From a virus, in IMG/VR virus record IMGVR_UViG_3300045243_000021, positions 1-64,000 of that record: a stretch of DNA of 64,000 bases; one strand, written 5' to 3'. Both the position numbers and the translations under genes were made by a program. The notes beneath the pieces are model-generated. The model made no database searches, was not told the DNA's origin, and saw only the letters and a program-made list of their open reading frames with translations. Positions 1,534 to 57,106 of the stretch are shown one piece after another. The first letter of the stretch is position 1. Every line of letters starts with the position of its first letter.

Positions 1534-2654
1534 AAACCATTCGTTGCTCACGATTGCCGCTAGCGATTGCATGCCCACAAAGCCAAGATTCCGACGGCAT
1601 CGACATTGACGGAGCCGGGGAAGCCGCGGCGCTCGGGACCGCGGTTCACGAGGCACTAGCATCGTCCATCGAAGGCGAGTCGCCCAACGTCGCCATGATA
1701 GCTGCGAAACACGGCGTCGATTCCACGGAGTTATTCAAGCTCTACTCCTGGGGCATGAAGGCGTGGGCTCAAATAGGCCAGTGGTTCCCGGATCGCGTCA
1801 CCGAGGAGCCGATGGCGGCCGGGATTCTGACGGGCACGTGCGACGTGCTCAGTCCGGGCGACGGCACCGACGCCGAAATCAACATCGCCGACTTCAAGAG
1901 TGGCTGGCTTGATGCCGATTGCACGCACCAGGTCAAGGGCTACGCCTGGCTCGCCTTGCAGCAGGTTCCCGAAGCTCAGTTTGCCTTCGTCTGCGTCGTG
2001 CGCATCCGCGATGGCGTGGTGGACCGCGAACGCTACACGCGGGGTGAGCTGGAGCAGTGGTATCTCTGGATGGCGAAGCGGCTGGCGGAGCGAAGCTACA
2101 ACCCTGGCTCGCACTGTTCCGGCTGTCCGCGGCGGGCGACGTGCCCAGCGATTGACGCCTACCTGGAGCGGGCCGGTAACGCCTTGGTGTTGAACGCCGA
2201 AAGCACGAACCTACTTGACCCGTCCAGCGTCGTGCGGATCTACGCCGCGGCGAAGCAGATGGAGCAGCTAATTGAGATCGTGAAGACGGGCGTCAAAGCC
2301 CGCGTGGCGGCCGCGGGCGGCATGCTGACGACGGACGCGGGCACGCTGGTCATTACCGAGAGCCACCAAAGGAAGCTGGTGCCGATTGAGGCGTTACCGG
2401 TGCTTCGTGGCTACCTGTCGGAAGACGAACTAACTGAGTGCATCGACCTGAAAAAAACGAAGGTGGAAGAGGCGATTAAGGCCAAGGCTCCGCGCGGCCT
2501 AAAGTCCTCGCTCGTCATGGACGCCATGAAGAAGCTGGACGCCGCCGGAGCCATACGAATCCAAACCATCGAGAAATTGGAGAGACGCAATGTCAGAGCC
2601 AGTACAGGGGCAGCTAGTAGTCAGCTCGCAATCGAATCGGCTGGTGTCCCATGA
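1530..2654 (+). CDS. RecB/Cas4-type exonuclease (DUF2800-like)
   Basis: 374 residues. The N-terminal Cys, the early helix with GTAVHEAL (nuclease motif His), the central IADFKSGW (Asp and Lys of the PD-(D/E)XK core), the HQVKGYAWLAL helix (the Gln motif) and the late CSGCPRRATC cluster match the Cas4/AddB arrangement. In that family four Cys hold an Fe-S cluster. Such phage enzymes resect DNA ends for strand annealing. The next gene is a RecT annealer that overlaps its 3' end, so the pair should form a Red-like recombination system. Confident for the fold, less so for polarity. Confidence 0.85.
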   Translation: MKTIRCSRLPLAIACPQSQDSDGIDIDGAGEAAALGTAVHEALASSIEGESPNVAMIAAKHGVDSTELFKLYSWGMKAWAQIGQWFPDRVTEEPMAAGILTGTCDVLSPGDGTDAEINIADFKSGWLDADCTHQVKGYAWLALQQVPEAQFAFVCVVRIRDGVVDRERYTRGELEQWYLWMAKRLAERSYNPGSHCSGCPRRATCPAIDAYLERAGNALVLNAESTNLLDPSSVVRIYAAAKQMEQLIEIVKTGVKARVAAAGGMLTTDAGTLVITESHQRKLVPIEALPVLRGYLSEDELTECIDLKKTKVEEAIKAKAPRGLKSSLVMDAMKKLDAAGAIRIQTIEKLERRNVRASTGAASSQLAIESAGVP

Positions 2655-3567
2655 CGAGGGGCCGCTAGCCCATCTCTTCGACACCGCCCGTTTCGAGCAG
2701 CTACAGCGCGTCGCCAATGCCATGGCGTTCTCTACCTTCCTGCCGGCGCACCTGAAGACCGGGACCAAGGAAGAGACCGTCAGCAATTGCCTGCGGGTGT
2801 TGAACCAGGCGTTTCGATGGGGCATGGACCCGTTTGCTGTGGTGGATGAAACGTACGTGGTGCGCGGCAAGCTGGCATACCAAGGCAAGCTGGTGGCGGC
2901 CATCGTCAACGCCAAGGCGAACCTGACGGAGCGGCTAAAGTTCTCCTTCGCTGGCTCCGGCGACAAACGCACTGTTACCGTCTCGGGCACGTTTACCGGA
3001 GAGCAAGAGCCGCGGACGGTGGAAGTGGAACTGGGCAAGGTAAAGACCGACAACCAGATGTGGGCGAAAGACCCCGACCAAAAGCTTTGCTACAACGGCG
3101 CCATCAAGTGGGCGCGGCGGCATTGCCCTGAACTCATCCTCGGCGTCATCACCGAAGACGACCCCATCCCGCAAGCTGACGACCCGCAACCGGCCACGAA
3201 AGAGACGGGGCGGCTTAGTGTCCGGAAGAACGGCCACGCTACCGTAAACCGCATCGCCGGGGCCTTGCCGGCCGAACCGGAGAAACAACCAGAGATTGAA
3301 GCGGAACCGGAAATCGTCCCGGAACTGCCCACCGCTCCTGATGAAAACCTGGACGCCGAAGACTGCCTTAACGACATCACGGGCAAGCTCAAGCTTTGCA
3401 TGAGCGTCCGCGAATTGAAAAAGGCTGGGGAATACATCGTTGAGAGCACCGAACGCCTTGGCGGGCCAGAAAGCCGCTACTACAAGCGTGCGTCGGAAGA
3501 GTTCACCAGGGCCAGCGTAGACTTGAAGGCCATCGGGGTAACGCTACCGGTTAAGGCAAGCAAGTAG
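2590..3567 (+). CDS. recT: RecT-family single-strand annealing protein
   Basis: 325 residues. Residues around 30-200 carry the RecT pattern: CLRVLNQAFRWGMDPFAV, TYVVRGKLAYQGKLVAAIV, and the closing part with CYNGAIKWARRHCPELILGV. The Pro/Glu-rich linker at about 225-255 and a helical C-terminus are lineage-specific. ATG 2590 lies inside the exonuclease gene in another frame, so the two are translated together. It anneals ssDNA during phage recombination and replication. Confidence 0.88.
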   Translation: MSEPVQGQLVVSSQSNRLVSHDEGPLAHLFDTARFEQLQRVANAMAFSTFLPAHLKTGTKEETVSNCLRVLNQAFRWGMDPFAVVDETYVVRGKLAYQGKLVAAIVNAKANLTERLKFSFAGSGDKRTVTVSGTFTGEQEPRTVEVELGKVKTDNQMWAKDPDQKLCYNGAIKWARRHCPELILGVITEDDPIPQADDPQPATKETGRLSVRKNGHATVNRIAGALPAEPEKQPEIEAEPEIVPELPTAPDENLDAEDCLNDITGKLKLCMSVRELKKAGEYIVESTERLGGPESRYYKRASEEFTRASVDLKAIGVTLPVKASK

Positions 3568-3614
3568 CACGGGGTGTGCTACGGGGCCGGGCCGGGGGCG
3601 CGTTGCTCCCGGCC
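3564..3614 (+). terminator. Double hairpin, probable terminator after recT
   Basis: GTAGCAC (3564-3570) pairs with GTGCTAC (3576-3582), and GGCCGGG (3590-3596) pairs with CCCGGCC (3608-3614). TATTCTT follows. The first stem contains the recT stop codon. The U-tract is broken, so termination may be partial. A TTGACA lies downstream at about 3629, but its would-be -10 is poor. Confidence 0.45.
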
Positions 3615-5175: not shown

Positions 5176-5236
5176 TTGTCGATCCCACGCCCAACCGATT
5201 TTCCGTTGCCAAGACAGCAGCGTGGAGACATCCGCA

Positions 5237-6208
5237 ATGAAGCGCGGCACCCCAAATCATCCCAAGACTCGCGCCCTAGCGAAACGGCTTGGTATCCCAA
5301 TATATTCGGCGGTAGGCATCTTGGAAATGCTCTGGCATACCACGGCAGTATTTACTCCTCAGGGGAACATCGGCAAGATTTCTGACCAAGAAATTGCCAA
5401 CGAGATTGGATTCCCAGAGGAACGCGCATCGGAGTTAATCGAAGCTTTCTTGTCATGCGGGTGGCTGGACAAAGACCCAACGTATCGACTGATTATTCAT
5501 GACTGGCACGAGCACGCCGACGGGATAGTCCGTCGCATCCTGAGAAACAAAAAACTTGAGTTTCTCGTGTCTTCAGGAAACTCTAAACATGAGTGGGTGT
5601 ATTTCATTTTGGCCAAAAAAAGCAAGGCTATAAAGATCGGCACAACACAACGCCTTGTGTCCCAGCGGTTCAGCGAACTACGATCTAACTCGGCGGAAGA
5701 ACTTGAACTCATAGGTTACATACCCGGAAGCCACGTTGCCGAGGTCAATTTGCACGCCCAATTTAAGCATTTGAAAATAAAATCTGAGTGGTTTAAGGAT
5801 ACTCCTCAACTTAGAGCAACTATTAAGGCTCTAATTTCTTTACATGGTACTACAGAAGAAGTTACGGAAAGCAGCTTTTCCGGTTCTCTGGCATCGGCCG
5901 GCGAGTCTGTCGAGGTCTTGCCTTCCAAGCCAAGCCAAGCCATAGCCAAGCCAAGCCGTAGCCGTGGCGCTGCTGCTTTGGTTTTCCTGAACGGTGACGA
6001 GGAGAAAATCAGGTGGGCGGCTCACGTTCTTTGGGCAAAAGGAAAATTCGAGTTACCGGAAGACGCATTTGTCGCTGATGTTCTCAAACGACCAGCGCGG
6101 TATCACTTCAAACTTCAACCTGACGGTCATTGGCTTCCACCGGAAGACGGCATTGACTTTCAGGAACTCGTGCGCAGTTTCGGCAAAATTCCGGGGGGTG
6201 AAAAGTGA
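5237..6208 (+). CDS. Winged-helix replication-type protein with an inserted GIY-YIG (T5orf172-like) domain
   Basis: 323 residues from ATG 5237, chosen for the GGAG 9 bases upstream. Residues 1-105 look like the wHTH front of phage replication or DnaD-like proteins (HPKTRALAKRLGIP, then IANEIGF and a DWHEHAD motif). Residues about 119-204 are a T5orf172/MUG113-type GIY-YIG relative (VYFILAKKSKAIKIG, then HAQFKHLKIKSEWF). After a Ser/Pro/Lys linker comes a new C-terminal domain (about 245-323). The inserted part is visibly AT-richer than its surroundings, a sign of separate origin. Confidence 0.65.
   Translation: MKRGTPNHPKTRALAKRLGIPIYSAVGILEMLWHTTAVFTPQGNIGKISDQEIANEIGFPEERASELIEAFLSCGWLDKDPTYRLIIHDWHEHADGIVRRILRNKKLEFLVSSGNSKHEWVYFILAKKSKAIKIGTTQRLVSQRFSELRSNSAEELELIGYIPGSHVAEVNLHAQFKHLKIKSEWFKDTPQLRATIKALISLHGTTEEVTESSFSGSLASAGESVEVLPSKPSQAIAKPSRSRGAAALVFLNGDEEKIRWAAHVLWAKGKFELPEDAFVADVLKRPARYHFKLQPDGHWLPPEDGIDFQELVRSFGKIPGGEK
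5591..5848 (+). mobile_element. GIY-YIG domain insertion inside the winged-helix gene
   Basis: This segment encodes the T5orf172-like domain. Its bases are richer in A and T than the flanks (for example the runs around 5765-5850). A sister domain occurs at 62260-62496. GIY-YIG domains of this kind belong to homing or mobile nucleases. Here the insertion keeps the frame open, so the host protein has become a fusion. Whether the nuclease is active cannot be told from the sequence. Confidence 0.5.
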
Positions 6209-28350: not shown

Positions 28351-29159
28351 TGCTAGACATCACCCGCAAGTCGCTTCAGATAATTTACTGCGTCGTTACG
28401 CTCTCCGCGTTGCTCTTGCACCAGCCCACGAAGGACGCGGCCAAGGTCGAGGGCCTGGAACTCACGGCCACGCTCAAAGGCGCACCCGTGAAGAGCGGCG
28501 ATGCCTTGCCCTCGTGCAAGCAACTCATCATCGTTGCCAAAACGACGGATGAGAAGGCAGAGGTCAGGTGGCTTGTGTTTGGTGCCACCAGCGACCCGGA
28601 CTTCGAGGTATCGGGGCCGACGCTCGTTGTCGTCACGCCGCCGGACGGCGGGCGTATCGACGTCTTCGCGTTGGCGAGCAATGCGGGGAAGCTCACCGAG
28701 TTCGCGACATTCTCAGTTAACGGGAAGGGTTCACCTCCCGTGCCACCGGTCAATCCTCCGGTGAATCCTCCCGTTAACCCCCCTGTCACGCCACCGGTGA
28801 CACCGCCCGTGGGGCCGGTGACGGTCACGCAACCGCTGCACGTCATGATCGTGGACGACCCGAGCACGCGCACGCCCGAGACGGCGGCCATCATCGCCTC
28901 GCAGACGTTCCGGGCGGCTCTCGCTGGTGCTCAGTTCCGCTTGTACGCGGCCAACGATCCAAGCTTGGCGAACGGTGGCATCAGCGTGGTGAGTGGCCAG
29001 CTGACGGCCAAGACTAAGGCCGGCGCGGTTGTGGGACAAGCGACGATACCGGCGCTCATCGCCGTGGACGCGAAGGGCGTGCTGCACTTGTGTAAGTCGT
29101 TGCCGCGAACGGAAGCGGAAGCCATCCAAATGCTCAAGCCGCTGCTGGGGGGGAAGTGA
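28350..29159 (+). CDS. Exported protein with Pro-Val-Asn linker
   Basis: 269 residues. A hydrophobic N-terminus (about 9-24) is a probable export signal or anchor. Residues 30-125 look like an Ig-type or substrate-binding domain. The linker PPVNPPVNPPVTPP (about 129-152) is a Pro-rich spacer. The C-terminal domain (about 155-269) is alpha/beta (HVMIVDDPSTRTPETAAIIA) with no nameable family. Modular exported proteins with such linkers are common in planctomycetes. It precedes the protease by overlap. Confidence 0.6.
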   Translation: MLDITRKSLQIIYCVVTLSALLLHQPTKDAAKVEGLELTATLKGAPVKSGDALPSCKQLIIVAKTTDEKAEVRWLVFGATSDPDFEVSGPTLVVVTPPDGGRIDVFALASNAGKLTEFATFSVNGKGSPPVPPVNPPVNPPVNPPVTPPVTPPVGPVTVTQPLHVMIVDDPSTRTPETAAIIASQTFRAALAGAQFRLYAANDPSLANGGISVVSGQLTAKTKAGAVVGQATIPALIAVDAKGVLHLCKSLPRTEAEAIQMLKPLLGGK

Positions 29160-29161
29160 AG

Positions 29162-31138
29162 ATGCCTGACATCAAAGTCTTTAACGACGCGAATGGTACG
29201 CGGCTTATCGAGGCCAAGGGCCAACCACCGCGGGCCATGGGCTGCTGGGCACCCAAGCCGCATTGCGCCTTGCCGGGCATCGAACAACTCGCCGCTGGCA
29301 TCCTGCCGCAAAGCCAGTGGCAAGAACTAACTTTGGGGCAATTTGCCTGCGAAGTTCAAGACCAAGGTCAGACCAGCAGTTGCTTCCCGGCTGGAACGCA
29401 TATCCGAATGGAGGACGGCTCCGAACGCAAGATCGAAGACGTTCGGTTGCTGGATAAGGTTCTGACGGCTGAAGGGAACATCGGGACCGTCACGCGGCTG
29501 ATGGTTCGCCATGAGCCAAACGCCTTGCTGCGTCTTTGCCTTTGGGGACATCGGCATCTACGCATGACGGCAGAGCATCCAGTTCTGACGAAGCGTGGTT
29601 ACGTTCCTGCCTGCGAACTGAGAGTAAGCAAAGCCAGATGGCACGGTGGCGAAGAATGTGATTGGGTGGCTATGCCGCGATATGCGCCACAGCTAAGGAC
29701 AAGCATTCACGTTGACGATCACGTTGATACGTATCGGACGTTTATTCGTCGCGAGCGCGTGAGCAAAATTCATAGCGTATCGTCGCGTGGAACGGTGCTA
29801 ATCACTAAATATCCATTGCCAGATTTCTTCACGCTCACGCCGGGTGTTGGCAGAATCTTTGGCCTGTTCCTGGCTGAAGGAAGCACAACGTCAACGTATG
29901 TCATGTGGACATTCAACATCAAAGAGAAAGAAACGCTTGCCGCCGAATTGATCGACTTACTGAAAGCCGAGTTCGGCATCGAAGGAAGACTTCGGACGCG
30001 GCCAAACAATACCTGCAACGTACAGGTTCACGGCACCGGATGGGCAAGATTGTTTGAGGCATTGTTTAAGACCGGTGCCGGACGCAAGCGTATTCCGTCA
30101 GACATTGCTTCTGGACCAAAGGATTTCTTGGAAGCGCTTTTCACCGGATGGCTTGATGGTGATGGACATGCCAGGCGCAATGGTATTGGTGGCGTTAGCA
30201 TCTCCCGCGATCTCGCTCTAGGGATGTTCGACATCGCCCACGCGCTGGGCAAGCTTCCGGCAATCAGTCGCAGGGAAGGCAAGCCGAACAAAGGCGCGCT
30301 GGTTCGTCAAGCAAGTTGGGAAGTTCATTGCCAGAATGATCCGCCCGAAAAGGTGTTCCGTTCTCAACAGGACGACAAGCACGTCTGGCGGCGAATGGCT
30401 GGTATCGAAATGGAGGAGTTTTCTGGGCCGGTTTACAACATGGAAGTCGAAGGCGACAACAGCTACGTCGCGGAAGGAATCGGCGTCCATAACTGCACCG
30501 GCTTCGGGACGCGGACGCTCATGCGGCGATTCCGGTTGCTCTCCGGGCAAACCATGCCACCCACGGATTTTAGCCCGTGGGGGATTTATGAGATGGTGAA
30601 CCATGGAGCCGATGGCGGGGCCGATCCGGAAGAGGTCATGACGGCCTTGATCAAACGTGGGTGCCCGCTGATGGGTAGTCTCACGACTGGCGGCGTGCCT
30701 GACAAGCTGTTCTTGGCTCCGTCCATCGACGGCCAAAAAGCGGTATGGGACACGGCTGCCCGGTACAAGCTGGCGCAAGCCTATTCGTTCCGCACGTGGG
30801 ACGGACTTTGCACGGCCTTGACGCTCGGCAAGAACTGCGGACTTGGCATCCCCGTGCGAAGTGACTTCATGCACGGGAAATTAGACGACGAAGGTGTGGT
30901 GCCGTGGACGGGTCAGATGCTCGGTTGGCACTGGGTTGAGGTACATTCATTAGAAAAGTCCAAGAAATACGGCTGGAAAGCACGCATGCAAAATCAATGG
31001 GGCATGTGGGGCGACAAGGGCTTCGCTTACATCGTAGAACAGCACCTTGATCCGACAATGAGTCTTGGATTCGCGCCCGAGGCGCAAGTGGACGACCCGA
31101 ACGTGGACACGAGCGATTTCCCGGCGGTCACGGGGTAG
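29162..31138 (+). CDS. Papain-like (C1 family) cysteine protease interrupted by an intein at its catalytic Cys; candidate lysin
   Basis: 658 residues before splicing, about 287 after. The protease part has QDQGQTSS joined to CTGFG at the oxyanion/nucleophile site, a later GWHWVEV with the catalytic His, and NQWGMWGDKGFAYI matching the Asn-x-Trp-Gly motif of papain enzymes. The intein occupies 29381-30493 and starts right where the active-site Cys must be, so only the spliced form can be active. ATG 29162 is the likely start (a GTG at 29156 is also possible). The neighbours are membrane proteins, so it may serve as the lysin of a host whose envelope is protein-rich; this role is an inference. 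Confidence 0.8.
   Translation: MPDIKVFNDANGTRLIEAKGQPPRAMGCWAPKPHCALPGIEQLAAGILPQSQWQELTLGQFACEVQDQGQTSSCFPAGTHIRMEDGSERKIEDVRLLDKVLTAEGNIGTVTRLMVRHEPNALLRLCLWGHRHLRMTAEHPVLTKRGYVPACELRVSKARWHGGEECDWVAMPRYAPQLRTSIHVDDHVDTYRTFIRRERVSKIHSVSSRGTVLITKYPLPDFFTLTPGVGRIFGLFLAEGSTTSTYVMWTFNIKEKETLAAELIDLLKAEFGIEGRLRTRPNNTCNVQVHGTGWARLFEALFKTGAGRKRIPSDIASGPKDFLEALFTGWLDGDGHARRNGIGGVSISRDLALGMFDIAHALGKLPAISRREGKPNKGALVRQASWEVHCQNDPPEKVFRSQQDDKHVWRRMAGIEMEEFSGPVYNMEVEGDNSYVAEGIGVHNCTGFGTRTLMRRFRLLSGQTMPPTDFSPWGIYEMVNHGADGGADPEEVMTALIKRGCPLMGSLTTGGVPDKLFLAPSIDGQKAVWDTAARYKLAQAYSFRTWDGLCTALTLGKNCGLGIPVRSDFMHGKLDDEGVVPWTGQMLGWHWVEVHSLEKSKKYGWKARMQNQWGMWGDKGFAYIVEQHLDPTMSLGFAPEAQVDDPNVDTSDFPAVTG
29381..30493 (+). 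mobile_element. LAGLIDADG intein in the cysteine protease
   Basis: 371 residues in frame. It begins CFPAGTHIRMEDGSERKIED (block A with Cys1), has RMTAEHPVLT (block B with the TxxH pattern), LFLAEGST and LFTGWLDGDGH (the two LAGLIDADG motifs), and ends VYNMEVEGDNSYVAEGIGVH then Asn before a Cys+1. All splice-site residues (Cys1, terminal His-Asn, Cys+1) are present, so it should splice and home. Confidence 0.92.
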
Positions 31139-51571: not shown

Positions 51572-51787
51572 ATGGGATTCGGTGACGGCATACACGCGGC
51601 ATTGGAGATGGTAGGCGTCACGGAAGAACGGGTGCGGAAGTGGCTGGGCCATGCGTGCCAAGGATGCAAGGAACGGCGGGACCGCCTCAACGCGCTCGGC
51701 TGGTGGGCACGACGGGTACTGACAGGCAAGACAGCGGATGCGGTGAAGCACTTGGATAACCTGATGGAGGAGCAACCAGATGAGTGA
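51572..51787 (+). CDS. Small Cys-pair protein
   Basis: 71 residues from ATG 51572. GHACQGCKERRDRLNALGWW gives a CxxC pair in a charged helix, seen as a recurrent small-gene type in such phages. The end overlaps the start of the methyltransferase gene, and the ribosome site GGAGCAACC for the latter lies inside it. Confidence 0.6.
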   Translation: MGFGDGIHAALEMVGVTEERVRKWLGHACQGCKERRDRLNALGWWARRVLTGKTADAVKHLDNLMEEQPDE

Positions 51788-54431
51788 AAGCGGGCCAGTT
51801 CTTACGTCAGTTCCAGTCTGCAACGCAACTACGTTACCCAAAGACCAGTGGCTAAAACTGCCTGACGGAAAGCTGGACGGCATGAAAGCTGTACCATGGC
51901 CTAATGTTACCGCTACCGCCTGCCGAGCCTGTGGTCACGTCGGCTTCACGTCGCTTTACTCGCTCGGTGAGCACGCCGTCAACGATTTCCCCACGAAGGA
52001 ACAGCTAGGCAAGGGGCCGCGGTGTCCTATCGACATAGTGCTATGTCCGAACTGCTCGCTCGTGCAACAGCGGCACACGGCACCGCAGGAGTTGCTGTAC
52101 ACGCGGCGTTACTGGTATCGCTCGGGGCAAACACAGACCATGGTTCAGGAGTTGACGGCACTGGCCCACGAAATTCAATCGCGGGTGCCGTTCACCGAAG
52201 ACGACGTGGTGCTTGACATCGGTTGCCTACCAGACGGATTCGTCTATGGCGACGCCTTTGTTCAGCGTGACATCAGGGAAGTTAAGACCGGAGACATGGT
52301 GCTCGGTCGCTCTGGATTCGTGCGCGTCACAAACACGTTCATGCGTGAGTACGATGGTGAATTAGTGGCTGTGCGGCTTTTAGGCGACCCGCGCGTATTG
52401 CGACTGACGCCGCATCATAAGGTGCTTGTGGTGCCGCACGCTACCGGGAGCAATCTAACGGCTGAGCGTGCTGCGTCGTATTATGCGGCGGCAATGCCAC
52501 AATGGAGAGCAGCCGAAGCGTTACGCGAGGGCGACTACTGCCTGATGCCGCCATGCGAAACGAGTGCGCCGTTAATCACCGAGATTTTCATGTCGGCCAC
52601 CGTGCAATGCGAGACAGACGGTGACACGGCATATGCACAACAACGCCACGGTGCAACTGGAGCTATTCAGCGTGCCTCAAATCAGAATCCGGTTCCTGAG
52701 CGGTATCCGTTAACAGAGGCGTTCGGACGATTACTCGGTTATTACATCGCTGAAGGTAGTGGCGACGGAGTAACCTGCGAAGCATTTTCGTTCTCGTTCC
52801 ACACCAAAGAAACGGAATATGTGGCTGACGTTCAGCAGCTTGTAGCGAGCGTGTTCGGCCTAAAAACAACGCTATCCGCTGGCAATGGCCAAACGGCCGT
52901 GGTGAGTGTGTCGTCCGCCTTGGTGAAGCGATTCATGCAAGCATTGGTAGGCAGCGGCGCGGCCAACAAGCGTTTGCCACCTTTTGTGTTTGCCGCCCCC
53001 GTGGAATTCGTGACTGGGTTGCTGACTGGCATGTTTCGTGGAGACGGAAGCTTCACGGCGGGCATGGCCAAATACGACACCGTATCTGAGGTGCTCGCAT
53101 ACCATGTGAAGGCATTGCTTCTGCGTTTCGGCGTCAACAGCTCAGTTATGCCAAACAAGCCGAATGGGTTCGGCAAGGCAAATGGCAAAACGCTATTGTC
53201 GGTGCGCATTTTCGGTAAGGCTGACCTTGGCGTGTTGTCGCGGCTGGTCGGTGAAGTGATACCGTGCCAATCAAACAAATCTCAAGTTAATTGGCCGCAG
53301 TGCCGTGGCATGACGCTCGTCCGAATTGTATCGGCTGTGCGGGAGCAGTATGCTGGACCAGTCTACAACTTGGAGACGACGGACAATAGTTATGTCGCGT
53401 CATCGGCGATAGTTCACAACTCAAATGACGGCACGTTTCTGCGGGCCTTTACTAAGCCGTGCACCAAGGTGGGCGTTGAACCAGCCACGAACCTGCACGA
53501 CGAAGGCGCACGCGGTATCGACATGCTCATCAGGGATTTCTGGGACGTGGACGTTGACAGGCCGCCGTATCTGTTTGGCGATTCGTCGTGCCTTGCTAAG
53601 CGGGCCAAAGTCATTACTGCTTTGGGCATGTTCTACGATCTCGACAACCCCGGCCAGTTCATCGCCGACGTTGCCAAGGTGCTTGCTCCTGATGGCGTCT
53701 TCGTAGCCCAGTTCATGGGCCTCAAGCAGATGATGGCCACCAACGACATCGGCAATCTATGCCACGAGCATATCGAATTTTGGACACTCAAGAGCTTGTC
53801 GCGATTGCTCGATAAGTGCGGCCTCGAAATCTTCGACGTGGCAGAGAACAAGGTAAACGGCGGCTCGTATCGGCTGTGGATACGGCACAAATCTGACGCA
53901 TTTTGTTCCATTAACGACCATGAGTATGACTTCAAAGAGAATCGGCTGGTTAGGCGAGAATCTGCCACATTTCCATCGTTTTCTGTGGAAGCATACGACC
54001 GAGTTACTGCCGCCTTCAAGGCCGAAGCGCATCTAGACTCACCAGAGTACCACCGCGAATGGTTCCGGCGGCTGGAGTTAGACAAGGAACGCATTGTCAG
54101 CTTCATCCGCGATGCCGTGCTAGAACATCGCAAAGCATGGTGCTTCGGTGCCTCGACCAAAGGTAACACAATCCTCCAGTGGCTCGGGCTGAACGCAAAC
54201 ATGATCGAGGCCGCCGTGGACAAGTCGGCGGAGAAGGTGGGCCGGTATACCGTCAACGGCATTCCCATTCGCTCAGAGGAAGAGTTCAGGAAGGCGAACC
54301 CGCATTTTGCGCTCATCTTGCCCTATGCCTTCGTGGATGAGTTCGTGGAACGGGAGAAGGCGTGGCTAAAGCGTGGCGGTAAATTCATCGTGCCGTTGCC
54401 CAAATTCCATGTCATTGAGAACATGCCATGA
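51780..54431 (+). CDS. Sugar C-methyltransferase-type SAM enzyme interrupted by an intein in SAM motif I
   Basis: 883 residues before splicing, about 484 after. The N-terminal Zn part (CRACGHVGFTSLYSLG, then CPNCSLVQ) and the later domains match the Methyltransf_13/11/14 architecture of TylCIII/NovU-type sugar C-methyltransferases. The SAM site VVLDIG joins SNDGTFLRAF only after the intein (52224-53420) is removed. The later section CFGASTKGNTILQWLGLN is the second nucleotide-like domain. It fits a deoxysugar pathway with its neighbours. Confidence 0.8.
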   Translation: MSESGPVLTSVPVCNATTLPKDQWLKLPDGKLDGMKAVPWPNVTATACRACGHVGFTSLYSLGEHAVNDFPTKEQLGKGPRCPIDIVLCPNCSLVQQRHTAPQELLYTRRYWYRSGQTQTMVQELTALAHEIQSRVPFTEDDVVLDIGCLPDGFVYGDAFVQRDIREVKTGDMVLGRSGFVRVTNTFMREYDGELVAVRLLGDPRVLRLTPHHKVLVVPHATGSNLTAERAASYYAAAMPQWRAAEALREGDYCLMPPCETSAPLITEIFMSATVQCETDGDTAYAQQRHGATGAIQRASNQNPVPERYPLTEAFGRLLGYYIAEGSGDGVTCEAFSFSFHTKETEYVADVQQLVASVFGLKTTLSAGNGQTAVVSVSSALVKRFMQALVGSGAANKRLPPFVFAAPVEFVTGLLTGMFRGDGSFTAGMAKYDTVSEVLAYHVKALLLRFGVNSSVMPNKPNGFGKANGKTLLSVRIFGKADLGVLSRLVGEVIPCQSNKSQVNWPQCRGMTLVRIVSAVREQYAGPVYNLETTDNSYVASSAIVHNSNDGTFLRAFTKPCTKVGVEPATNLHDEGARGIDMLIRDFWDVDVDRPPYLFGDSSCLAKRAKVITALGMFYDLDNPGQFIADVAKVLAPDGVFVAQFMGLKQMMATNDIGNLCHEHIEFWTLKSLSRLLDKCGLEIFDVAENKVNGGSYRLWIRHKSDAFCSINDHEYDFKENRLVRRESATFPSFSVEAYDRVTAAFKAEAHLDSPEYHREWFRRLELDKERIVSFIRDAVLEHRKAWCFGASTKGNTILQWLGLNANMIEAAVDKSAEKVGRYTVNGIPIRSEEEFRKANPHFALILPYAFVDEFVEREKAWLKRGGKFIVPLPKFHVIENMP
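52224..53420 (+). mobile_element. LAGLIDADG intein in the C-methyltransferase
   Basis: 399 residues in frame. It begins CLPDGFVYGDAFVQRDIREV (block A with Cys1), has RLTPHHKVLV (block B), LLGYYIAEGSG and LLTGMFRGDGSF (the two LAGLIDADG motifs) and ends GPVYNLETTDNSYVASSAIV then His-Asn, followed by Ser+1. All splicing residues are present. Confidence 0.92.
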
Positions 54432-54487
54432 GCGAACGGAAACGCTCTCTAATACTCGGCATCGGTGGGCAAGAGGAATCAATCTAA
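54428..54487 (+). pseudogene. Orphan 5' end of the epimerase/dehydratase gene
   Basis: ATG 54428 overlaps the methyltransferase stop and opens MSERKRSLILGIGGQ before running into stop (EESI). The same start recurs 685 bases later as MSATKRSLILGVGGM, the beginning of the intact gene at 55113. Between them lies the LAGLIDADG gene. The first copy ends right at the turn of the nucleotide-binding motif. Confidence 0.85.
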
Positions 54488-55116
54488 TGCCAGCAAAAAT
54501 GTACTTAAAGGACAAAAAGTGCGTCGTCTGCAAGAGGGCGTTCAATCGCACACTACGACCCAATGGCGACCTGGAAGCTCCGACGCATTACGCCGCTCGT
54601 GTGTATTGCTCCATGTCATGTTGTGCGTATTACCGTCGTGTAATATGTCCAGCACCAGCGATCAGACAGATGGATAAATTGACTAGCGAGCAATGGGCAT
54701 ATTTGGCTGGCATATTCGATGGTGAAGGCTCAGTGTATCTGCGACGCGCATACAACCGCTATGGTCCTCGTCGCACGTTTAGCCTATCAGTGACAGTTGT
54801 ATGCGGATGTCATCGCAATGCGATTGCACGCATCAACAGAATGATTGGCACCAAAACTCTCGAAAAGATTAACGGCACAGGCAACAAAAGAACGGCGTGG
54901 CGCATTCGTCTGCACGGCTCTCAAGCTACTCGTTTCTTGGAAGGCGTTCAGCCATTCGTGTTAATGAAAACACGCCAAATTAAAATTGCCATTGCATTCC
55001 AGAAAGCAAAGCCGAGTCGCGGCATGCATCCTTTGTCCGAAACGCATGTTCAATTTGAACAGAAATGTAAGGATGAACTTACGATTCTCAATCAACGCGG
55101 AGTACAGCACGAATGA
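54487..55116 (+). CDS. Free-standing LAGLIDADG homing endonuclease
   Basis: 209 residues from ATG 54487 (TAATG overlap with the orphan fragment). YLAGIFDGEGSVYL is a single LAGLIDADG motif, and CVVCKRAF and CSMSCCAYY give a Zn knuckle N-terminal to it. With one motif it should act as a dimer. It is more AT-rich than its neighbours. It separates the two copies of the epimerase start, so it is the invading element. Confidence 0.85.
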   Translation: MPAKMYLKDKKCVVCKRAFNRTLRPNGDLEAPTHYAARVYCSMSCCAYYRRVICPAPAIRQMDKLTSEQWAYLAGIFDGEGSVYLRRAYNRYGPRRTFSLSVTVVCGCHRNAIARINRMIGTKTLEKINGTGNKRTAWRIRLHGSQATRFLEGVQPFVLMKTRQIKIAIAFQKAKPSRGMHPLSETHVQFEQKCKDELTILNQRGVQHE

Positions 55117-56108
55117 GCGCCACAAAACGGTCTCTCATTCTTGGCGTGGGCGGAATGGATGGAAGCCATCTCGCCGACCTGCTCCTTGGTCGCGGTCATG
55201 ACGTCCATGGCATGCACCGGCATTCTTCCGTGGACAACCTTGGCCGGATCGCCCACGTCCGCTCCTGCGTGACACTACACCGTGGTGACTTACTTGACCT
55301 GACGAGCATACGCCGGATTCTCCAGGACGTGCAACCTGACGAGTTGTTCAATGTCGCTGACCAAGACAACGTCGAGTGGTCCCATGCCCAGGTGGGGCTG
55401 TCCATGGACGTGACGGCTGGTGCCGTGGGCAAGCTCCTGGAGATAGTGCGGCAGACATGCCCCAAGGCGCGGGTCTTCCAACCGCTCTCCGTCACCATGT
55501 TCGGCATGATGCCGCCACCGCAGGGCAAGACCACCGCCTTTGACCCGCTATCCCCTTATGCCTGTGCCAAGGTGGCCAGTTTTTATCTGTGTCGCATGTA
55601 TCGCCGGGTGCATGGTCTGCACGTCGTTACGGGCGTGATGGCGAACCACGATAGCCCGCGACGGTCGGATGGGTATCTGTTGCAGAAGATCGCCCGCGGG
55701 GCCGTTGGGTGTGCCTGGGGACGGCAGAAGGAACTAAGGCTTGGGGCGCTGGCGGCACGGGTGGACGTGGGCTGTGCTCGTGAGTTCATGGAATGCGTCA
55801 TCAAGGCCATGGAGTACGACGAGGCCGACGATTGGATTATCGGCAGCGGAAAGGCCCACACCATCCAGGAGATTGCCAAGGCGGCGTTCGTGAAGGTGGG
55901 GCGGGACTGGCGGCATTTCGTGCGTGAGGATGCGACGTTACTTAGGCCGGGGCCGATGCCGCACTACTGCACGGACATAAGCGACACGCAGAAGCGGCTG
56001 GGCTGGCGTCCGCAGAAGGATTCGCTGGACGTGGTGCGGGAGTTGGTGAGCCATTTCGAGCGGCAAGTGAACCTGGAACATGGGCAGGCGTGGAGGGATC
56101 ACGGGTGA
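55113..56108 (+). CDS. GDP-mannose 4,6-dehydratase-like SDR enzyme
   Basis: 331 residues. GVGGMDGSHLADLLLGRGHD is the Rossmann start of extended SDRs, then HRGDLLD, QPDELFNVADQDNVEWSHA (as in GDP-mannose dehydratases), and the catalytic YACAK with the preceding SVTMFG. It would make a 4-keto-6-deoxy nucleotide sugar for the cluster. ATG 55113 overlaps the stop of the homing gene. Its first 15 residues are the recoded partner of the fragment at 54428. Confidence 0.8.
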   Translation: MSATKRSLILGVGGMDGSHLADLLLGRGHDVHGMHRHSSVDNLGRIAHVRSCVTLHRGDLLDLTSIRRILQDVQPDELFNVADQDNVEWSHAQVGLSMDVTAGAVGKLLEIVRQTCPKARVFQPLSVTMFGMMPPPQGKTTAFDPLSPYACAKVASFYLCRMYRRVHGLHVVTGVMANHDSPRRSDGYLLQKIARGAVGCAWGRQKELRLGALAARVDVGCAREFMECVIKAMEYDEADDWIIGSGKAHTIQEIAKAAFVKVGRDWRHFVREDATLLRPGPMPHYCTDISDTQKRLGWRPQKDSLDVVRELVSHFERQVNLEHGQAWRDHG

Positions 56109-57106
56109 AAGTAGGCACGTTTGCTTATCCGACGTCGCGCGGCCTAGGACATTTGGCAAAGGATTTCGCCGATCATGGTATTACGACCGATACGCTTGTT
56201 GTTGAGCATGCGTCTATCCCGAGCAATGCCGACTGGTATCCAAGTGCTCCCCGAACGAATGCAAGACGCCTTGACCGCAATCTAATGTTCGACTTCTGCC
56301 GTGGCAAAGACGCAATGTTGTTTTTTGAAACGCCATTTCTTTGGGACGTGATACCGCATTGCGCGGCAATCGGCGTTCGCACCTATTTACTCGTGATGCA
56401 TGAATGCACTCCGGCTGTTCACTCGCCACCGCATCGTTACCTCTGCCCTTCCTCGCTCGACATGCACTATTTCAAGGACCACGATGCCGTCTTTCTCCAG
56501 CTGCCCGTTGATCCGCAGAAGGTGCCATGGCGACAGCGAGAGAAGGCGGAACTCTACGTCCACCACGGCGGGTATCTCGGGCTCAGGGGCCGCGAAGGGA
56601 CAGCGCTGCTGATCGATGCCATGCGTTACGTAAAGAGTCCATTGAAGCTTCAGATACGGGTACAGGAAAACGTCGATGCCACACGGCAACGGCAGATGGC
56701 CCAGGATGCGCGTATCGAGTACCTCCCGCAAACGATTCCTTTTGCTGAACTATGGCAGGACGGCGACGTTTACGTTGCCCCGCAGAAATTCAATGGCTGC
56801 TCGCTTCCCCTTCAGGAAGCCTATGCTTCGGGCATGCTGGTCATGACCACCGACCGCTTTCCCATGAATACCTGGCTACCGCGTGAGCCGATGATTCCCA
56901 CCAAGGGCATACTGAAAGACGTACAGGTCGGCGGACCTTACCTGCCGTTCGACGAGTCGGTCATTGATCCTGAGGACATCGCCAGGACGATGGATGCGTG
57001 GCACGAACGGGATATTGCCGAGTGGTCAAGGCGTGGGCGGGCGTGGGCGGAAGCGAACTCGTGGGAGCAACTCAAGCCGCTGTGGATGGAGCAACTGAGT
57101 AAGTAA
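56105..57106 (+). CDS. Glycosyltransferase (GT4-like)
   Basis: 333 residues from GTG 56105 (GTGA overlap). The N-terminal half begins KVGTFAYPTSRGLGHLAKDF. The C-terminal half has DVYVAPQKFNGCSLPLQEAY and ASGMLVMTTD, the nucleotide-sugar site with the conserved Glu of GT4 enzymes. It transfers a sugar in the decoration pathway; the acceptor is unknown. Confidence 0.75.
   Translation: MKVGTFAYPTSRGLGHLAKDFADHGITTDTLVVEHASIPSNADWYPSAPRTNARRLDRNLMFDFCRGKDAMLFFETPFLWDVIPHCAAIGVRTYLLVMHECTPAVHSPPHRYLCPSSLDMHYFKDHDAVFLQLPVDPQKVPWRQREKAELYVHHGGYLGLRGREGTALLIDAMRYVKSPLKLQIRVQENVDATRQRQMAQDARIEYLPQTIPFAELWQDGDVYVAPQKFNGCSLPLQEAYASGMLVMTTDRFPMNTWLPREPMIPTKGILKDVQVGGPYLPFDESVIDPEDIARTMDAWHERDIAEWSRRGRAWAEANSWEQLKPLWMEQLSK

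Follow-up and report, generated by a model that had tools for sequence, protein, structure and literature searches.

A homing endonuclease gene set between two diverged 5′ ends of a dehydratase-like gene in a phage

Two 5′ ends of one enzyme gene on either side of a homing endonuclease gene

The window analyzed here is a stretch of 64,000 bases from the 72,002-base virus record IMGVR_UViG_3300045243_000021. In this window a free-standing LAGLIDADG homing endonuclease gene (HEG) interrupts a dehydratase-like enzyme gene within the conserved nucleotide-binding loop; the enzyme gene stays open through a second 5′ end, diverged from the first, that follows the HEG. The features of the split gene are as follows.

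54428 to 54487, + strand: dead stub, putatively the 5′ end with which the dehydratase-like gene originally began (codons 1 to 15 in frame, codons 16 to 20 with a 1-base deletion, stop TAA)
54472 to 54477, + strand: Shine-Dalgarno-like AGAGGA, 9 bases 5′ of the HEG start, read from the sequence
54487 to 55116, + strand: free-standing single-motif LAGLIDADG HEG, 209 amino acids (phrog_5046, 1.2e-20; AlphaFold model)
55099 to 55102, + strand: Shine-Dalgarno-like GGAG within the HEG 3′ end, 10 bases 5′ of the second start, read from the sequence
55113 to 55172, + strand: second 5′ end of the dehydratase-like gene, putatively a substitute and covering about codons 1 to 20, with no visible downstream border
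55113 to 56108, + strand: intact GDP-mannose-4,6-dehydratase-like short-chain dehydrogenase/reductase (SDR) gene, 331 amino acids (PF16363, 9.5e-66), the sole copy in the record

These genes overlap at each junction. The stub ATG overlaps the stop of an upstream methyltransferase gene (ATGA), the stub stop overlaps the start of the LAGLIDADG open reading frame (ORF) at 54487 (TAATG), and at 55113 the HEG stop and the ATG of the intact enzyme overlap in turn (ATGA). The HEG stop and the enzyme start are coupled, and Shine-Dalgarno-like sequences precede both the HEG and the enzyme starts. The stub ORF translates as MSERKRSLILGIGGQEESI followed by a stop (20 codons), and the intact enzyme begins MSATKRSLILGVGGMDGSHLAD. 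Positions 55113 to 56108 form a single unbroken ORF with a full-length PF16363 match, which means that the second 5′ end is fused in frame with the body of the gene, while the severed old 5′ end lies across the HEG from that body, at the ancestral start position. The original prediction had described a LAGLIDADG gene whose stop overlaps the start of the intact enzyme, with the target gene kept alive by its second 5′ end, and both points agree with the ORFs at 54487 to 55116 and 55113 to 56108 and their shared ATGA.

Over codons 1 to 15 the stub and the second start share 11 of 15 residues and 29 of 45 bases (BLOSUM62 score 54), and six of the 11 shared residues are written with different codons; the two starts are therefore alike in protein and unlike in bases, as had been predicted. 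When the stub was compared with 2758 ORF starts from the collected loci, only starts of the same enzyme family came within 6 points of this score, and three of them outscored the window's own gene. The best score was 41 against a set of 3886 starts from which most such motifs had been filtered out, and it came from residual family members. Thirty-seven of 500,000 random start pairs, related pairs included, reach 54.

The likeness appears to run past codon 15. Stub bases 54473 to 54486 match codons 16 to 20 once a 1-base deletion is allowed (GA-GGAATCAATCT in the stub, GATGGAAGCCATCT in the working copy), with P of about 5e-4 against random and genomic 14-mers. Since these codons still match with one base missing, the stub is probably a frameshifted original start of about 20 codons rather than 15 codons followed by unrelated sequence. 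The original prediction was thus right that 54428 is the start of the enzyme gene, but its end just after the nucleotide-binding turn, at codon 15, gives way to a match that probably reaches codon 20. What it called recoding in the second copy amounts to no more than ordinary divergence between homologues. Third-base and synonymous changes of this kind are expected of any homologue at such a distance and are no proof of recoding or of selection for resistance to cleavage, and 15 stub codons are too few for codon-level composition to be informative.

The phrog_5046 profile matched by the middle ORF is labeled HNH, yet the protein bears the motif LAGIFDGEG, and its match to Pfam LAGLIDADG_3 is weak (0.018). 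Its AlphaFold model has a mean pLDDT of 68.6, with core blocks mostly at 70 to 93, and a Foldseek comparison with known structures returned I-MsoI (E 3.7e-8) and I-CreI (E 1.2e-7, target TM-score 0.74). Two features of the protein are placed here.

54703 to 54729, + strand: LAGLIDADG motif LAGIFDGEG, including D78, which is invariant in the aligned family
54520 to 54621, + strand: Cys-rich N-terminal extension (C12-x2-C15 ... C41-x3-C45), zinc-binding-like by sequence, with pLDDT below 60

Because D78, K161 and Q164 are invariant across the aligned family, the nuclease looks active, and by analogy its single motif suggests that it should act as a homodimer. I-CreI and I-MsoI, which it resembles in fold and in having a single motif, are encoded in organellar rRNA introns; the window nuclease differs in being free-standing and in its Cys-rich N-terminus, which is also missing from the aligned relatives. 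The G+C content of the HEG is 0.48, compared with 0.58 for the window and 0.62 for the body of the enzyme gene.

Could the stub instead be a real first exon, joined to the enzyme through an unrecognized intron, an intein or a ribosomal hop, with the second start merely incidental? An intein is present in the neighboring methyltransferase gene, and in locus L327 a capsid gene contains both a related HEG and a group I intron. However, an Rfam search of the stub, HEG and enzyme region gave no intron or ribozyme match, although the same search detects the L327 intron, and almost no space for a ribozyme is left outside the HEG. The HEG protein, in its own frame, runs from MPAK to VQHE and a stop and lacks intein ends (an N-terminal Cys or Ser, and a C-terminal HN before Cys, Ser or Thr). 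The stub is one base out of frame, whereas nothing is missing from the second start, which has a ribosome-binding site of its own. We consider splicing or bypass very improbable, and by its sequence the HEG is free-standing, encoded in neither an intron nor an intein.

Relatives without the endonuclease gene and the site of the original start

Searches of viral contigs with the enzyme or the portal protein alone returned almost no relatives, whereas the degenerate pattern LILG[IV]GGxDG recovered seven viral contigs. Three of them (L094, L097 and L092) carry the same enzyme at 44–46% identity, directly or nearly directly behind a methyltransferase gene, with neither intein nor HEG, and share the gene order methyltransferase, dehydratase, glycosyltransferase. 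In the window the two flanking genes are as follows.

51780 to 54431, + strand: intein-bearing C-methyltransferase gene (PF08484, 1.2e-28; PF13489; PF14528; Intein_splicing)
56090 to 57106, + strand: downstream glycosyltransferase gene (PF13692, 2e-5)

The methyltransferase is uninterrupted and 45–50% identical in all three contigs, where it lies upstream of the enzyme gene. The glycosyltransferase is collinear in the HEG-free relatives, with 38–53% identity in L094, L092 and L378. Homologous portal proteins (39–51%) are present in the L097 and L092 records; given these and the collinear genes, kinship with L097 and L092 extends to the phage itself and is not limited to this gene.

The original prediction had proposed aligning the junctions of relatives that lack the insertion. 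These are uninterrupted, and in L097 the dehydratase ATG overlaps the methyltransferase stop, as it does in a truncated contig (L096, GTGA) and in a Peribacter metagenome-assembled genome (MAG; L177). The stub ATG sits at exactly the position of the enzyme ATG in these three loci, and on that ground we read the stub as the original start of the enzyme gene. The loop itself reads GGQDG in the relatives, GGQ in the stub and GGM in the working copy. Over a 24-base core the stub matches L097, L094, L092, L096 and L177 at 20, 19, 20, 18 and 20 bases, and the working copy at 15, 17, 18, 17 and 14. The stub is therefore nearer to all five. By this measure, taken over 24 bases and driven largely by one codon, the stub would be the resident allele and the second start the later arrival.

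An apparent interruption in L099 proved to be merely a neighboring SDR gene. In a Woesearchaeota MAG (L178, 4940 to 5060), a homologue behind the same methyltransferase carries a frame-breaking 17-base insertion exactly at the GGQ/DGS codons, either a possible relic of cleavage at this loop or an artefact.

The same comparison bears on the possibility that the HEG entered the first of two tandem enzyme genes and that most of the first was then deleted, the contrary case that the original prediction had raised. The Peribacter MAG does have a second homologue about 4.6 kb downstream. However, the enzyme gene is single-copy in the window record and in each phage relative, so a lost tandem paralogue is not indicated; no such paralogue lies at the junction in the HEG-free relatives of the same phage group, and in L097 the single enzyme gene abuts the methyltransferase stop. 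The deletion would also have to stop just at the HEG start. We regard this history as improbable.

From its sequence we class the intact gene as a divergent GDP-mannose-4,6-dehydratase-like SDR, the nearest solved structures being GDP-mannose dehydratases. The window enzyme and those of L094, L097 and L092 have Thr (S-A/V-T-M/V-F) in place of the active-site Glu that GDP-mannose dehydratases carry in SxSE, and they retain the Tyr and Lys. The enzyme of this phage clade may carry out a different chemistry.

The intein of the methyltransferase (52224 to 53420) is of the LAGLIDADG type, lies in the S-adenosylmethionine-binding motif (VVLDIG / C...HN / SNDGT) and is absent in L094, L097 and L092. 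With the HEG in the enzyme gene, it means that the same operon was invaded twice. Elsewhere in the window, a 660-amino-acid ORF at 29156 to 31138 has Hom_end_hint, Intein_splicing and LAGLIDADG_3 matches and is a second intein-like protein, and a GIY-YIG type MUG113/T5orf172 protein at 5222 to 6208 is possibly another homing or defence-like nuclease.

Duplicated gene ends at other loci of the nuclease family

Relatives of the nuclease were gathered from viral contigs and phage isolates, and 167 distinct loci were tested for similarity between the sequences upstream and downstream of the HEG. Beyond the window, three clear cases of a duplicated end were found (L221, L199 and L364), all at the 3′ end of the gene. 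In L221 a complete thyX (PF02511, 2e-51) is followed by a HEG that begins within the last thyX codons, and a second C-terminus, IRCYANAAAITLGKVMPVTHDAFVRNDWTAP and a stop, runs from the HEG stop. L199 has a complete thyX, then the HEG, then VAEAMRTILEDLFPETLAAYNEVK; the junctions of both thyX loci fall at the same YE/I[RQ] codons. In L364 a major capsid C-terminus (phrog_1005, E 0.007; capsid relatives) ending MTYDMRIIAKDMGIFMASAVA and a stop precedes the HEG, which is followed by MTYDMRVVAKDMGIFMASAVA and a stop. Over 22 codons these two capsid C-termini have 11 identical codons, nine synonymous differences and two conservative changes. The nucleases of all three loci, like that of the window, belong to phrog_5046. 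Rfam found no intron in L221, L199 or L364, while the same search recovered the group I intron of L327.

In each of these three loci the loose fragment starts at the junction and continues to the gene's natural end, or nearly so, which is what an insertion that deletes nothing would leave; the window fragment extends from the natural start as far as the junction. Most other nuclease relatives lie at gene borders with no duplicated end, among them those in the isolates Samisti12, Braelyn, Faust, RBC63, KIL1, Gilson and Vibrio 496E54-1 as well as others, and for this reason we take the trait to be occasional or soon erased.

Several candidates from the scan were rejected. The high scores of L224, L255, L308 and L314 came from DNA-level repeats or non-coding frames rather than gene ends, and those of L253, L300, L217 and L323 from self-overlaps of mis-set short ORFs. 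L327, considered as a further 5′ duplication, was set aside for a weak DNA alignment and the group I intron in its capsid gene; in this locus (2220 to 3600) the same-family HEG lies near the 5′ end of the capsid gene and the intron farther on (3379 to 3589). In L198 (2717 to 3613) a HEG is flanked by two versions of a small basic, Arg/Lys-rich gene, an ambiguous arrangement and possibly a further case of gene replacement. The phrog_5046 nucleases, often annotated HNH although they are LAGLIDADG proteins, repeatedly abut or overlap thyX (L194, L197, L284, L278 and L280), at its 5′ end in Streptomyces phages and at its 3′ end in Pseudomonas and Vibrio phages.

A model of gene-end replacement

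We hold with moderate confidence that an I-CreI-like HEG inserted into the 5′ end of the enzyme gene and that a substitute start from a diverged copy keeps the enzyme alive. Under this model the LAGLIDADG HEG would have inserted at the conserved nucleotide-binding loop, at about codons 15 to 20 of the phage dehydratase-like gene, severing the original first codons and leaving them as a dead stub behind the methyltransferase gene. A substitute 5′ end with its own ribosome-binding site and start, its source being a diverged copy of this gene, would then stand directly after the HEG, and the enzyme would survive because this end is continuous in frame with the rest of the gene. The mobile unit would be the HEG together with the substitute 5′ end, and such a unit could enter a useful gene while being neither intron nor intein. 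In the most likely course of events the HEG would recognize the loop codons, and a donor carrying the HEG linked to the gene end would supply the repair of the break; differing around the loop, where codon 15 reads ATG instead of CAA, the substitute would not restore the original recognition site. The target site, the cleavage, the immunity and the import of the 5′ end alone are all inferred; that the element brings an immune replacement start is plausible but falls short of proof.

Several observations weigh against this model. The best HEG-free relatives are at only 44–46% protein identity, and the border of the imported stretch is not visible. A duplicated end occurs in only four of the 167 family loci, and the window is the sole 5′ case. 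Its score of 54 falls among the spurious values in an unrestricted similarity scan of HEG flanks; we take the likeness of the two starts to be significant because of their start-to-start register and the synteny, not because of that scan score. Finally, phage thyX homologues are more like the attached C-terminus than the loose one, as would be seen if the loose copy were a decaying native remnant but also if it were foreign. The evidence on polarity is therefore weak and mixed, with the window resting on 24 bases and the thyX comparison pointing the opposite way.

The thyX result also keeps alive a different history, in which co-conversion left a scar. Here the donor HEG would lie between methyltransferase and enzyme genes, and the recipient would be cut in the 5′ end of its enzyme gene. 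Homology downstream would import the HEG with the donor's whole enzyme gene or more, while an illegitimate join upstream would leave the recipient stub, and the second start would be part of a complete donor allele rather than separate cargo. Co-conversion of flanks is standard in phage homing (PMC2988022), many HEG relatives do sit at gene borders without duplicated ends, and by the thyX polarity either copy could be native. However, the faulty join would have to recur, since L221, L199 and L364 show a split and a duplicate at the opposite gene end, with the loose piece running from junction to end. The enzyme and its downstream neighbor are collinear with the relatives, although an allelic swap would preserve collinearity too. 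We judge co-conversion somewhat unlikely, yet it is the main rival of the replacement model.

The closest known systems to gene-end replacement come from fungal mitochondria, where mobile ORFs bring a replacement C-terminus to Allomyces macrogynus atp6 and to Glomus atp6, atp9, cox2 and nad3 (PMC3630166). As in the window, protein genes there are split by a free-standing, mostly LAGLIDADG HEG, with the old end left loose and a second end fused in frame, and the two ends are similar in protein but diverged in bases (91% of amino acids and 63.5% of nucleotides for Glomus atp6; PMC3630166); the fused end of the fungal genes is a foreign copy. Those elements are mitochondrial and sit at 3′ ends, whereas the window element is in a phage and at a 5′ end; because the replaced end is the N-terminus and not the C-terminus, we class it as a variant rather than a plain member. 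The original prediction had named the Allomyces atp6 type as its mirror image, and the three related loci L221, L199 and L364 are the phage 3′ counterparts of the fungal arrangement.

The "introns with N-terminal duplication" of Tremella fuciformis mitochondria (PMC7315562) are likewise HEG-bearing mobile elements with a copy of part of the host gene, and an exchange of gene fragments was proposed for them. By their published description, the copied part is at the element's 5′ end and is similar to the exon that follows, apparently a 3′-replacement geometry despite the name; some of the elements are true introns. T4 MobA (gene 60/39) and Aeh1 MobE (nrdA) are encoded by free-standing phage HEGs in the coding region of a functional gene, but they are HNH nucleases and the gene remains as two working polypeptides with no duplicated end (PMC2988022). 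Our search of the open-licence literature found no phage homing gene with a substitute gene end and no free-standing homing gene with a substitute 5′ end.

More tentatively, it is quite possible that phage HEGs of the phrog_5046 type spread by invading conserved codons near either end of protein genes (thyX, major capsid, sugar enzymes) and replacing the severed 3′ or 5′ end with a version of their own that cannot be cleaved; in the window this would comprise a ribosome-binding site, a start codon and an N-terminus, all new. Without being an intron or an intein, a selfish gene would then be able to inhabit functional phage genes by bringing a spare gene end, extending a mechanism of fungal mitochondria to phages and, in the window, also to 5′ ends. 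The thyX and capsid loci offer tractable cases for the old idea that copied ends give immunity to cleavage. The arrangement also suggests a way for phage genes to gain mosaic ends: if gene-end swapping by this HEG family is real, a selfish cassette that replaces gene ends would also generate mosaic phage genes.

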